Source: Thermoplasmatota archaeon
Lineage (GTDB): Bacteria; Pseudomonadota; Gammaproteobacteria; Burkholderiales; Thiobacillaceae
Assembly (NCBI GenBank): GCA_023475455.1
Contig: JAMCVR010000239.1
Coordinates: 1 to 9,932 of the forward strand
Direction of reading: 5' to 3'
Length of the DNA stretch: 9,932 bases
Shown here: positions 1 to 8,878 of the stretch, piece by piece
How positions within the stretch are numbered: position 1 is the first letter of the stretch
How the letters are laid out: every line of letters begins with the position of its first letter
Program-made: the position numbers and the translations under genes
The notes under the pieces: model-generated
Told to the model about the DNA's origin: nothing
Seen by the model: only the letters and a program-made list of their open reading frames with translations
The model's database searches: none

Positions 1-313
1 CCAGCCCGCCCCCTTTCTTGTCGATCCAGCGCGCGGACAGCCGCGCGCGGGTGCGGTAACCCCAGCTCGGGCCATGCAGGGCGGGCAGGATGATGTCGGG
101 ACGGACCTTGCCGATGCGGGCGAGGTTCTCTTCCAGCACGCGCTGCTTGGCGGCCACCTGGGCGCTGGCTTCCAGATGCTGCATCGAGCAGCCGCCGCAG
201 CGGCCGAAGTATTGGCAGCGCGGCTCGGTGCGCTGCGCGCTGGCCTTGAGAATGGCGACGGCGTTGGCCGAGTTGTATTTTGCATGTTTGCGGTAAACGG
301 CGATTTCCGCGCG
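1..313 (-). repeat. Partial copy of rlmD (codons ~34-138), direct repeat of 1474-1786
   Basis: By eye this stretch is identical to 1474-1786 (offset 1473). The match ends at 313, where the sequence switches to a copy of the region starting at 1006. It begins at the window edge, so its full length is unknown. In gene orientation it is a second jump back into the 5' half of rlmD. No promoter or start suggests separate expression. Confidence 0.9.
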
Positions 314-942
314 CAGAACAGATCGGCGAGGCGTTCACCCGCCCGGGGTTGCAGCAGGCGTATGGCGCGACTCGCCAGCGTGCGGTTGATGGCGGTGTTG
401 ACCTGGGTGAAGTCGGTCGGTTTGAACGGCATCACCAGGCCGAATTCGGGCAGGCTGTAGCTGAGTTCGGGGGCAATGTGGGGCCAGAAAGGGCGGACGC
501 TGTCGGGGCCTTTGGCCTGTTCCCATATCTGGATGCGATGCCGTTCGGCAAACGCCCGCATCCTGGCGGCATCGTCGTCGGTCCAGGGTTCGAGCAGGCG
601 GAACACCAGCACGGTGACGTGCTCGCCGACGGCAACCTCGATCTGCGGGATGCGGTCGGCGTTCGACAACTCGTTGATCAGCTCGCGCAGCGGCTGGATC
701 AGCGCCGAGACATCCGGGGTGAGCACCTCGCAGCTCGCCATGTCGGCGATGAAGCTGGAACGCTTTTCCCGAAAGCCCACCAGCCCGCCCCCTTTCTTGT
801 CGATCCAGCGCGCGGACAGCCGCGCGCGGGTGCGGTAACCCCAGCTCGGGCCATGCAGGGCGGGCAGGATGATGTCGGGACGGACCTTGCCGATGCGGGC
901 GAGGTTGTCTTCCAGCACGCGCTGCTTGGCGGCCACCTGGGC
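312..942 (-). repeat. Partial copy of rlmD (codons ~84-294), direct repeat of 1006-1636
   Basis: This 631-bp stretch matches 1006-1636 at offset 694. The only base difference I found is G907 against C1601. The match ends after ctgggc; the two sequences share gcttcc again if a 6-bp gap is allowed, so short homology lies at the junction. The offset is not a multiple of three, which explains the frameshift in the RlmD reading. Positions 780-942 are present three times in the window, including 1-163 and 1474-1636. Confidence 0.9.
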
Positions 943-1888
943 TTCCCTCGATGCCCACCACCTCGGCGCCGCTGGTTGCGATGGGCAGGGTGAAATTGCC
1001 CAGGCCGCAGAACAGATCGGCGAGGCGTTCACCCGCCCGGGGTTGCAGCAGGCGTATGGCGCGACTCGCCAGCGTGCGGTTGATGGCGGTGTTGACCTGG
1101 GTGAAGTCGGTCGGTTTGAACGGCATCACCAGGCCGAATTCGGGCAGGCTGTAGCTGAGTTCGGGGGCAATGTGGGGCCAGAAAGGGCGGACGCTGTCGG
1201 GGCCTTTGGCCTGTTCCCATATCTGGATGCGATGCCGTTCGGCAAACGCCCGCATCCTGGCGGCATCGTCGTCGGTCCAGGGTTCGAGCAGGCGGAACAC
1301 CAGCACGGTGACGTGCTCGCCGACGGCAACCTCGATCTGCGGGATGCGGTCGGCGTTCGACAACTCGTTGATCAGCTCGCGCAGCGGCTGGATCAGCGCC
1401 GAGACATCCGGGGTGAGCACCTCGCAGCTCGCCATGTCGGCGATGAAGCTGGAACGCTTTTCCCGAAAGCCCACCAGCCCGCCCCCTTTCTTGTCGATCC
1501 AGCGCGCGGACAGCCGCGCGCGGGTGCGGTAACCCCAGCTCGGGCCATGCAGGGCGGGCAGGATGATGTCGGGACGGACCTTGCCGATGCGGGCGAGGTT
1601 CTCTTCCAGCACGCGCTGCTTGGCGGCCACCTGGGCGCTGGCTTCCAGATGCTGCATCGAGCAGCCGCCGCAGCGGCCGAAGTATTGGCAGCGCGGCTCG
1701 GTGCGCTGCGCGCTGGCCTTGAGAATGGCGACGGCGTTGGCCGAGTTGTATTTTGCATGTTTGCGGTAAACGGCGATTTCCGCGCGTTCACCGGCCAGCG
1801 CGCCGTCGACGAAGGTGACCTTGCCGTCGATGCGCGCGACGCCGTGGCCCTCGTGGTCGAGGGAAAGAATGTCGACGATGGGATTCAT
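335..1888 (-). pseudogene. rlmD: rlmD, 23S rRNA (uracil-1939-C5)-methyltransferase, C-terminus scrambled by internal duplication
   Basis: The first ~316 residues are a good RlmD/RumA protein: an N-terminal TRAM-like RNA-binding region (about 1-58), a [4Fe-4S] cysteine set (C67, C73, C76 and C155, in [10 protein letters not shown] and ASCEVL), and the Rossmann SAM-binding motifs [14 protein letters not shown] (291-304) and VVGIEGS (310-316). The family transfers a methyl group from SAM to C5 of U1939 in 23S rRNA. At codon 316/317 (about position 941) the sequence jumps back to codon ~84 in another frame. Residues 317-517 are therefore a frameshifted reading of the gene's own middle. The DPPR region, the nucleophilic Cys and the general-base Glu are missing. 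A normal family member has about 430-440 residues. The ATG start at 1888 matches the family N-terminus (MNPIVDILSLDHEGHGVARI) but has no clear Shine-Dalgarno site. It is last in a minus-strand unit after the exonuclease gene. As written it should not encode an active enzyme; an assembly error is the main alternative. Confidence 0.85.
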
Positions 1889-4114: not shown

Positions 4115-4184
4115 GCGCTGCGAACCCTTTTTCGTGTGGTTCGGTCATCATCCGGGTTTGCCGCCAGAGGTGCAGGAGACCAGC

Positions 4185-6473
4185 ATGACGAAGAACAAAC
4201 GGTTGAACACCTTGATCGCCGGTCTGATGGCCGCAACGTCCGTCGGCTGGGCCGCTCCGCGCGGTGAAATCGTCAGCGGCGCGTCCGACCAGCAGGGGGC
4301 GGCGGTCACCATTTACAACGACAATCTGGCCCTGGTGAAGGATGCGCGGCGGGTCGGGCTGGTCCGCGGTCCCAACCAGTTGGCATGGCGCGGGGTGTCG
4401 GCGCAGATGCGTCCCGAAACGGCCCGGCTGCGCAACCTGTCGAACCCTGCCGGTTTCCGGCTGCAGGAGCAGAATTTCGATTTCGATCTGCTGACGCCGG
4501 AAAAGTTGCTGGAAAAATATGTCGGGCAGGAAGTCGGCGTCATCAGGGTCAATCCCGCCACGGGCGCAGAAACCCGCGAAGCCGCCACCGTGCTGGCGAC
4601 CCACGGCGGCGTGGTGCTGAAGTTCGCCGATCGCATCGAAACCGGCGTGCCGGGCCGGCTGGCGTGTGCCGGCGTGCCCGACACCCTGCGCGACAAACCC
4701 ACGCTGGCGATCTCATTGGTCAATCCATCGGCAGGCCCGCAGAACCTGGAGCTGTCCTACCTGACCGGCGGGCTGTCATGGCGCGCCGATTACGTGGCCG
4801 AACTGAATGCCGACGACGACCGGCTCGACCTGAACGGCTGGGTGACGCTGACCAACCAGAGCGGCGCGGCCTATCCCAATGCGAAATTGACGAAGAACAA
4901 ACGGTTGAACACCTTGATCGCCGGTCTGATGGCCGCAACGTCCGTCGGCTGGGCCGCTCCGCGCGGTGAAATCGTCAGCGGCGCGTCCGACCAGCAGGGG
5001 GCGGCGGTCACCATTTACAACGACAATCTGGCCCTGGTGAAGGATGCGCGGCGGGTCGGGCTGGTCCGCGGTCCCAACCAGTTGGCATGGCGCGGGGTGT
5101 CGGCGCAGATGCGTCCCGAAACGGCCCGGCTGCGCAACCTGTCGAACCCTGCCGGTTTCCGGCTGCAGGAGCAGAATTTCGATTTCGATCTGCTGACGCC
5201 GGAAAAGTTGCTGGAAAAATATGTCGGGCAGGAAGTCGGCGTCATCAGGGTCAATCCCGCCACGGGCGCAGAAACCCGCGAAGCCGCCACCGTGCTGGCG
5301 ACCCACGGCGGCGTGGTGCTGAAGTTCGCCGATCGCATCGAAACCGGCGTGCCGGGCCGGCTGGCGTGTGCCGGCGTGCCCGACACCCTGCGCGACAAAC
5401 CCACGCTGGCGATCTCATTGGTCAATCCATCGGCAGGCCCGCAGAACCTGGAGCTGTCCTACCTGACCGGCGGGCTGTCATGGCGCGCCGATTACGTGGC
5501 CGAACTGAATGCCGACGACGACCGGCTCGACCTGAACGGCTGGGTGACGCTGACCAACCAGAGCGGCGCGGCCTATCCCAATGCGAAATTGCAACGGGTG
5601 GCGGGCGACCTCAAGCGGGTGCGCGATGCCCGGCCGCAGCCGCGTGAAACGATGACGATGGCGGCCGATGCCGCCGGGATGCAGCGGGAATCGCTGTTCG
5701 AATACCACCTCTACACGCTGCAGCGCCCCACCACGCTGGCCGAAAACCAGACCAAGCAGGTGGCGCTGATGTCGGCCGGCCGGGTGCCGGTCAAGAAAAC
5801 ATTCCTGCTCGAGGGCGCGAATTTTTACTACTCCGGGCAACACGGCGAACTGGGGCAGAAAATCAAGGTGGACGTGTTTGTCGAATTCGACAACACCGGC
5901 GAAGGACTCGGCATTCCCTTGCCGCGCGGCGTGATCCGCATGGTCAAGAAAGACAGCCAGGACAATGTGCAGTTCGTCGGCGAGGACCGCATCGACCACA
6001 CGCCGAAGAACGAAACCGTGCGCCTGAAGCTCGGCGACGCCTTCGACCTGGCGGCCGACAGGAAGCAGACCGCCTTCCAGAAGCTCGCCGGCACCGGCCG
6101 CTTCAACTACGTGTTCGAGTCGGCGTACGAGCTCGTGCTGAAGAATGCCAAGCCGGAAGCGGTGACCGTCACCGTGCGCGAGCCGATGCCGGGCGACCGG
6201 ACGATGGTCTCCGAATCGCAGCCGCACACCAGGGCGGCGTCCGGAACCGCCGAATGGAAGGTCGGGGTGCCTGCGGAAGGCAAAACCACGCTGACCTGGC
6301 GCGCGCGCGTTAAGAGCCTAATTCAGCAGGAATCATGCCCCGCGTTGAGACCAGGATCGGATGGATGCAAGGCGCGGGGTGCTGGCCATGGTCATTCCAT
6401 GGCCAAGCGCCGCAACGCCGCAGACGCCGATCCTGGTCTCAACCCGAAGGGCCGGCTGCCTGCGGGCGCATGA
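4185..6473 (+). CDS. DUF4139 domain-containing exported protein, with internal 702-bp duplication and MITE-extended C-terminus
   Basis: The ATG at 4185 follows an AGGAG ribosome site (4174-4178). It begins a Sec signal peptide (MTKNKRLNTLIAGLMAATSVGWAA, cleavage near residue 24). The ORF also reads through upstream from 4134, but that extension has no ribosome site and would place the signal peptide internally. The family core is visible in GGLSWRADYVAELNADDDRLDLNGWVTLTNQSG and continues to EWKVGVPAEGKTTLTWRARVK, typical of secreted beta-rich DUF4139 proteins of unknown function. Two oddities are seen. Residues ~2-235, including the signal peptide, are repeated exactly in frame (4188-4889 and 4890-5591). 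The natural end was RVKY-stop, but a MITE now follows RVK, adding about 53 foreign residues up to the TGA at 6471. Without the duplication and the element the protein would have about 477 residues. As written, a second hydrophobic signal segment lies mid-protein, which would probably harm folding or export. Confidence 0.85.
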   Translation: MTKNKRLNTLIAGLMAATSVGWAAPRGEIVSGASDQQGAAVTIYNDNLALVKDARRVGLVRGPNQLAWRGVSAQMRPETARLRNLSNPAGFRLQEQNFDFDLLTPEKLLEKYVGQEVGVIRVNPATGAETREAATVLATHGGVVLKFADRIETGVPGRLACAGVPDTLRDKPTLAISLVNPSAGPQNLELSYLTGGLSWRADYVAELNADDDRLDLNGWVTLTNQSGAAYPNAKLTKNKRLNTLIAGLMAATSVGWAAPRGEIVSGASDQQGAAVTIYNDNLALVKDARRVGLVRGPNQLAWRGVSAQMRPETARLRNLSNPAGFRLQEQNFDFDLLTPEKLLEKYVGQEVGVIRVNPATGAETREAATVLATHGGVVLKFADRIETGVPGRLACAGVPDTLRDKPTLAISLVNPSAGPQNLELSYLTGGLSWRADYVAELNADDDRLDLNGWVTLTNQSGAAYPNAKLQRVAGDLKRVRDARPQPRETMTMAADAAGMQRESLFEYHLYTLQRPTTLAENQTKQVALMSAGRVPVKKTFLLEGANFYYSGQHGELGQKIKVDVFVEFDNTGEGLGIPLPRGVIRMVKKDSQDNVQFVGEDRIDHTPKNETVRLKLGDAFDLAADRKQTAFQKLAGTGRFNYVFESAYELVLKNAKPEAVTVTVREPMPGDRTMVSESQPHTRAASGTAEWKVGVPAEGKTTLTWRARVKSLIQQESCPALRPGSDGCKARGAGHGHSMAKRRNAADADPGLNPKGRLPAGA
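4188..4889 (+). repeat. 702-bp tandem direct repeat, copy 1
   Basis: Copy 1 runs from codon 2 of the DUF4139 gene to the Leu codon before the junction. It is identical by eye to 4890-5591, and both the coding frame and an antisense frame translate identically in the two copies. The shared bases at the breakpoint are only TG (4186-4187, 4888-4889), so no long flanking homology explains the duplication. The unit is 234 codons, which keeps the frame. Confidence 0.93.
4890..5591 (+). repeat. 702-bp tandem direct repeat, copy 2
   Basis: Exact second copy. It starts with TKNKRLNTL directly after AYPNAKL and continues into the unique 3' part of the gene (QRVAGDLKRV). The true gene probably contains this unit once. 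Perfect identity means either a very recent duplication or an unmerged assembly overlap. Confidence 0.93.
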
Positions 6474-6579
6474 CCGCGTTGCGAGCCGTTCATTTGGAAT
6501 GACCAAATTTCACGTCCCGCGCCTCGCCCTGCATCCCGCAGGCAAGCGGCGCGGGGCATGATTTCTGCTGAATGAGGCT

Positions 6580-6583
<4 letters not shown>
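6311..6583. mobile_element. 267-bp MITE-like element (6314-6580) with 31-bp terminal inverted repeats and TAA target duplication
   Basis: The left end (6314-6344, starting gagcctaattcagcagg) and right end (6550-6580, reverse complement starting gagcctcattcagcaga) match at 29 of 31 positions. TAA flanks both sides (6311-6313 and 6581-6583). Removing the element plus one TAA gives gcgcgttaagtactga, which restores RVKY-stop for the DUF4139 gene and a TAA stop for pgi, so the empty site is well supported. It has no credible transposase ORF, so movement in trans by a transposase elsewhere is inferred. GAGCC-like ends and a 3-bp TNA duplication would fit an IS5-family (IS1031-type) source; this is a guess. 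Inside are nested inverted repeats: 6344-6360 with 6427-6443 (17 bp), 6457-6466 with 6535-6544 (10 bp), and hairpins at 6384-6404 and 6492-6508. Confidence 0.88.
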
Positions 6584-8232
<1,649 letters not shown>

Positions 8233-8264
8233 GGGCGAACGATGCATGGGGTAGACTTCGAAGG

Positions 8265-8839: not shown

Positions 8840-8878
8840 ACCCCAAAGATATGTCCCGAAGGGACATATCTTTGGGGT
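8840..8878. repeat. 18-bp perfect palindrome with GAA loop after the FKBP gene
   Basis: The arms 8840-8857 (accccaaagatatgtccc) and 8861-8878 are perfect reverse complements around GAA. It starts 14 nt after the FKBP stop. On the plus strand no T-tract follows. On the minus strand a run of seven Ts (8825-8831) lies about 9 nt beyond the stem, too far for a standard terminator. The regular form suggests a dispersed REP-like or 3'-end stabilising element. Confidence 0.75.

Follow-up and report, generated by a model that had tools for sequence, protein, structure and literature searches.

The 9,932-nt stretch of DNA analysed here (the window) carries, between two convergent genes, a 267-bp insertion (positions 6314-6580) that has the anatomy of a type II MITE. 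This insertion is very probably an IS5-type MITE with a conserved folded core. The complete explanation, in which the MITE is moved in trans by IS5-type transposases while its core is kept as a DNA fold for as long as the element is mobile, can be regarded as rather probable. The element, its large family in gamma- and betaproteobacteria and its fold are well supported, and the job of the core is what we infer: the fold and the length hardly vary while the letters change freely, which suggests that the folded shape of the core itself does a job.

The initial annotation had described an element of 267 bp, bounded by inverted repeats of 31 bp that differ at two positions and flanked by TAA at each end, and the sequence bears out this description (Table 1). 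The inverted-repeat search of the window returns 32 nt at 94% for the ends of the element instead of 31 bp because the flanking A/T also pairs, and the window is matched twice by the end motif, for 0.00 matches expected (200 shuffles). No transposase is encoded within the 267 bp, the frames that run over the element being those of the neighbouring genes or frames entering from outside. The frame of the DUF4139 protein reads 52 residues beyond RVK from the element, and pgi ends on a TAG codon whose G is supplied by the last base of the element. The core is matched by the covariance model R1 on the plus strand and also, with 115 bits, on the minus strand, both scores being those of one of the 21 sequences on which R1 was trained.

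Table 1. Features of the element and of its flanking genes (positions in the window).
Feature	Position	Strand	Evidence
Left TAA target duplication	6311..6313		Sequence; single copy in L156 empty site
Right TAA target duplication	6581..6583		Sequence; empty site
Left terminal inverted repeat, GAGCC type	6314..6344	+	Inverted-repeat and end-motif searches
Right terminal inverted repeat	6550..6580	-	Inverted-repeat and end-motif searches
Structured core, model R1, 211 positions	6342..6552	+	R1 match, 171 bits, E 1.7e-40 (training sequence)
Left hairpin arm (P2)	6344..6443	+	Folds; covariation helices 1-4
Left arm tip GGCCATGG-TCATT-CCATGGCC	6384..6404	+	Sequence, fold
Mini-hairpin CC-GAA-GG (P3), between the arms	6444..6450	+	Folds
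Right hairpin arm (P4)	6451..6550	+	Folds; covariation helices 5-7
Right arm tip TTTGG-AATGA-CCAAA	6493..6507	+	Sequence; part of the family search pattern
DUF4139/DUF4140 protein, longest frame, with 52 residues from the element in place of its own end	4134..6473	+	
pgi (glucose-6-phosphate isomerase), stop now TAG	6580..8247	-	

Other repeats are present in the window. Within the DUF4139 gene (4186-5591), 704 bp recur exactly and in frame with a period of 702 bp, and the two copies correspond to a single stretch in each of the 14 relatives listed; either a recent duplication or an artefact of the assembly could explain this repeat. At the beginning of the window (1-1786), a gene with TRAM and uracil-methyltransferase domains is rearranged, 312-906 being equal to 1006-1600 and 1-313 to 1474-1786. 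The occurrence of a second exact duplication so near that of the DUF4139 gene suggests an assembly problem. Two inverted repeats were also seen, a small palindrome at 1901-1971 with a 30-bp near-perfect inverted repeat and an 11-base loop (CCACAGAGGCACAGAGGCAC...), and a perfect 18-bp inverted repeat with a 3-base loop at 8840-8878.

The site without the element is found in relatives. It had been predicted that the deletion of the element and of one TAA would restore an RVKY-stop end for the DUF4139 protein and a TAA stop for pgi. The junction of locus L156, CGCGTTAAGTACTGAG, is identical, letter for letter, to the window from which the element and one TAA have been removed. The comparison of the DUF4139-pgi junction in related strains, which had been set beforehand as a check, leads to the same result, since 20 of the 26 related pgi loci match an RV[RKMT]Y-stop pattern at the junction. 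Nineteen of these matches are clean; in L152, the pattern is matched yet extra sequence lies alongside. The core is present in none of the 26 loci (R1, E up to 0.1). Loci L145, L162 (with a shortened DUF4139) and L166 (diverged) have no insert and do not match the pattern, and L149, where the neighbour is rearranged, does not match it either and lacks the element. The two remaining loci without a match are L151 and L148. An apparent relic of a similar end type is found at the same place in L151 and L152, and a different IS-like end at the pgi junction of L148, so that this junction may be a repeated insertion target. The closest pgi genes among 60 relatives of G003 are 95% identical (G034 and others). 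In L142, near 1475-1508, the empty junction is tandemly doubled with an 18-bp step.

Further copies of the element, whose search had also been set as a check, are widespread in relatives: with seven candidates scored per genome, 55 of the 100 genomes related to G034 have matches (E<=0.001). With these matches and the empty site, the proposal withstands the refutation set for it beforehand (a lack of other copies, or copies at non-equivalent borders). Full-length matches elsewhere in relatives show 69-89% identity. In G003, 13 matches were counted, including partial ones and one repeat of a copy's own end. A genome scan with the tip motif retrieved at least 120 stretches, in which the conservation of the right tip is due to selection by the search pattern, which fixes it. 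Among the matches listed, most of the 80 that bear a title come from gammaproteobacteria, the remaining ones including Thiobacillus, unplaced Proteobacteria bins and chance matches in other phyla. Ends could be delimited at 90 of 125 sites, in some cases poorly, and at none of the other 35. The set of extracted elements gathers tip-scan sites, loci found by BLAST and loci found by end pattern (115 entries, 109 of them distinct), and leaves out low-score rows, rows above 305 bp and nine BLAST-found loci with no clear ends. In this set the length is nearly fixed across genera, 89 of the 109 distinct elements measuring 263-269 bp and most of the others being longer by about 14 or 30 bp. As the element is nearly symmetric, the direction in which some members (L239 for instance) should be read is ambiguous.

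The model R1 was also searched for in a sample of 369 genomes from the class to which G105 belongs. With six candidates scored per genome and G105 itself contributing training rows, 119 of these genomes are matched at E<=1e-3 and 82, about a fifth, at E<=1e-15. Since locus L010, which leads to G105, belongs to Candidatus Thiodiazotropha, this class should be the Gammaproteobacteria, which in GTDB take in the betas. A deeper search of eight genomes (at most 150 candidates scored) gave 26 to 149 matches in each, many copies being matched on both strands. As controls, none of eight genomes from other groups in which the tip motif occurs by chance is matched, and in the class of a Bacteroidaceae bin 4 of 149 are matched at 0.001, one of them at 1e-15. 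This latter match (L290) lies on DNA of 68-69% G+C and may be due to a misbinned contig, and the three weaker ones (best 2.8e-9) indicate that E values near 1e-9 are not safe. Plasmids seldom carry such elements: the window element matches 2 of 72,556 records and the L015 element 4, including the same two. In two Azotobacter chroococcum plasmid records, only the inner part resembles the window element, and these copies fold with the same plan and have other ends. In the four matching plasmid records, whose gene table is incomplete, no feature is annotated at the place of this repeat. Phage records match neither the window element nor the L015 element, and E. coli genomes do not match the window element.

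The predicted fold of the window element consists of a closing stem, two long hairpin arms and a mini-hairpin. Its energy is -179 kcal/mol, a value that no shuffle equals, with z scores of -13.3 and -13.5 on the two strands. Twenty-one members that are less than 80% alike (mean 53%) keep a core of 209-212 nt, and both sides have changed with pairing kept in 60 of its 73 pairs. Double-change cells amount to 380 versus 131.5 in shuffled data and paired cells to 84.8% versus 59.9%; none of 500 shuffles, which ignore the relatedness of the rows, is as high, all five covariation measures being above every shuffle. When the 3' partner is slid by 1-3 columns, pairing falls to 38-42%, in a comparison that favours the unshifted register because the structure itself derives from folding those 21 rows. 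The letters of the unpaired stretches are conserved across genera, the right tip belonging to the search pattern for most rows, and both pairs of the mini-hairpin P3 are CG in 89 of 89 rows and never vary. Kissing of the tip loops was considered and rejected: TCATT and AATGA are complementary in the window, and judged by eye this is not so in other members such as L010, L239 and L133.

The ends of the element were compared with those of complete insertion sequences. ISs of 834-835 bp in G105 and of 827-841 bp in G101 (Azotobacter vinelandii CA) have a PF01609 transposase, begin like the element ends (GGGCCTGTTAACA and the like) and show TA on both sides. The NCBIfam profile transpos_IS5_3 is matched above its cut-off in both frames of the G105 IS and of one G101 IS (110.4 and 123.2 bits versus 110), and with 186.6 bits in the one frame tested of the other G101 IS. 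PF01609 (DDE_Tnp_1) has matches in 4 of the 10 genomes searched and none in five Thiobacillus-type genomes or in G104, which bears the element. By exact end pattern, no GAGCC-type partner IS was found in 12 genomes; ten unpaired matches were viewed, and their surroundings, like those of one further pgi contig, showed no IS as judged by eye from the frames alone. Hence, the full-length IS that the initial annotation had named as a check on its proposal was found for the GGGCCTGTTAAC end type, in G105 and G101, and not for the GAGCC ends of the window. The other part of this proposal, that an element devoid of transposase is probably moved in trans, fits these data, in that members with the GGGCCTGTTAAC end type share their ends with IS5-family elements in the same genome. 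By kinship with such members, IS5 is the best supported candidate family for the window element. Furthermore, TA is found on both sides of 51 of the 79 GGG-type copies versus 1 of 2106 shifted control positions, and an identical TNA on both sides of 3 of the 27 GAG-type copies, including that of the window (TAA/TAA), versus 2 of 2106 controls. A 3-bp TNA duplication is a trait of the IS1031-like group of the IS5 family.

Several end sets surround the same core in G003. When 89 elements are compared pairwise, 13 pairs combine arms that are both at least 85% identical with ends that are less than 60% identical. Twelve of these pairs are one case (Azotobacter L036, L041, L062 and L080 versus L077, L114 and L115) and the remaining one is L074 versus L090, which makes about two independent cases. 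Swaps of single arms (one at least 90%, the other less than 60% identical) were found in none of the pairs among these 89 elements. Shortened copies also occur. Among the end-motif pairs listed for G105, 31 have the full spacing and 10 a shorter one, and nine loci hold forms of 159-160, 94, 57 and 18 bp that miss one or both arms. The 94-bp form is identical at two G105 loci, whose right flanks begin with TG and not with TA. The existence of copies from which both arms are gone, one form being found twice, suggests that the arms may not be needed for movement.

According to the explanation retained here, a non-autonomous element would have inserted at the shared 3' ends of two convergent genes and duplicated TAA, its ends being cut by an IS5-family DDE transposase supplied in trans. 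The core of about 211 nt, single-stranded or extruded as a cruciform, would fold into two long arms and a mini-hairpin, with the terminal repeats pairing to close the structure. This fold would serve in DNA form during the mobile life of the element, for instance on a strand exposed in replication. The paired ends could then present a duplex end to the transposase, and a protein could bind the arms or their conserved loops. Over evolution, the core would pass from one IS5-type end set to another. The DNA-fold mechanism is plausible, although it has to be held with some doubt. Still more tentatively, the element might be a selfish module inherited as a shape, that is to say a core of near-fixed length, selected as folded DNA, which has been hitched to successive IS5-type end sets across gamma- and betaproteobacteria and recruits the transposase of its host.

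Other explanations would account for part of these data. The resemblance of the ends to those of IS5-family elements could indicate an ordinary internal-deletion derivative of such an element (type I MITE), but R1 is silent in all five IS loci tested, and one and the same core is found between end sets of several kinds. For the other end types (G105, G101), only the ends resemble the partner IS, as in type II MITEs, and a type I origin is very improbable. It is unlikely that the element acts as RNA (in processing or stability, or as an sRNA), transcribed from the neighbouring genes or from its own promoter. The predicted RNA fold is very stable, and some copies of relatives lie a few bases from genes of the same direction, such as the same-site copies between MotA/TolQ/ExbB-type and ExbD-type genes (L173, by Pfam) or just before uvrC (L174, by Pfam). 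RNA selected on one strand should show more G.T than A.C mismatches, and such an excess is seen in the arms when G-U is allowed in the choice of pairs (171 versus 129, and 173 versus 105 with 62 of this count coming from a single column pair). However, there is little or no excess in GU-free folds (123 versus 94), in pairwise comparisons (874 versus 794) or in terminal stems (92 versus 104), so that the RNA strand bias in stem mismatches is at most weak. An RNA role acquired after insertion in operons was rejected in the same way (3 G.T versus 9 A.C in group A, 11 versus 11 in group B). Orientation preference is not clear either in 69 insertions, which a crude longest-frame gene caller places between convergent (17), divergent (18), tandem opposite (20) and tandem same (14) genes; a terminator role was discarded, since convergent neighbours are not in excess (17 of 69). 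In addition, no Rfam family reaches its gathering score across the whole window, and E-value runs on five elements gave sub-threshold matches only, such as ncS037 (21.2 bits versus 112), an identity that was rejected because the match is weak and many pairs are broken.

The paired changes could also result, with no selection, from template-switch correction of imperfect palindromes, the core being then a passive, self-repairing filler. The lack of a strong G.T excess over A.C in the GU-free and pairwise counts is what a DNA process predicts. Some double changes are found even at fixed sites: copies labelled as same-site, compared at 87-97.5% identity in 12 overlapping pairs from one clade (mean identity 0.93 versus 0.89 within that clade), show 14 double versus 149 single changes, with 8.6% of the paired-site differences compensated. 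However, such a correction should pair the internal loops too, yet unpaired letters are kept across genera, where the length of the element also hardly varies. Moreover, double changes are rarer at labelled fixed sites, not commoner. Copies not labelled same-site, a set that holds some same-site pairs (L029, L056 and L108 share flanks), show 839 double versus 2351 single changes (26% compensated), with 448 double and 1284 single in the Thiobacillus-type set. A purely mutational origin of the pairing is rather unlikely. The lower share of double changes at fixed sites, in sets that are small, overlapping and unequally diverged, suggests a renewal of pairing during the mobile life of the element. 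Same-site groups are formed by L172, L174, L175 and L179 and by L126, L173, L177, L181 and L182, the members other than L174 and L173 being recognized by shared flanks. When two further sites are added, giving four groups, 15 of 18 comparisons show a higher similarity in the element than in either flank, and this might point instead to a function at the host site.

Some known elements are comparable to this MITE with its folded core. MITEPsy1 from Pseudomonas syringae pv. phaseolicola, an IS5-related element of 100 nt, was seen moving in an entrapment assay (PMC3189936). It is likewise short and geneless, with terminal repeats like those of the IS5-family ISPsy2 and a short TA-containing duplication (CTAG or YTAA), but its end letters are different and the accessible part of that paper describes no conserved folded core common to different end sets (PMC3189936). 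In the same way, Chunjie (up to 235 bp), QMITE2 (about 190 bp, with a stable predicted fold shown) and ERIC-type MITEs are multi-copy and mostly intergenic. However, sizes vary within the Chunjie and QMITE families and, in a comparison made by description only, no cross-genus core supported by covariation is described in the accessible part of the source (PMC10969869). The IS5-family ISs with a two-frame transposase (transpos_IS5_3) identified in this work share terminal letters and TA on both sides with the element, but they are 827-841 bp long, encode a transposase and lack the core. No earlier description of this folded-core family was found in the literature searched, which mostly did not extend to subscription journals, and one may exist.

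The usual view of MITEs is that of remnants of transposons, with an interior that plays no part. In the present case, the interior of a MITE is held to its length and its fold across genera while its letters turn over, and this folded core, of which the initial annotation made no mention, is the more interesting part of the element. R1 would give annotators a model for this repeat. What the fold does can be tested directly, given the empty site, the IS5-type partners and the range of sizes among arm-less copies. Should the fold be under selection, this would point to an unknown protein, or to a transposition step, by which folded DNA is read.
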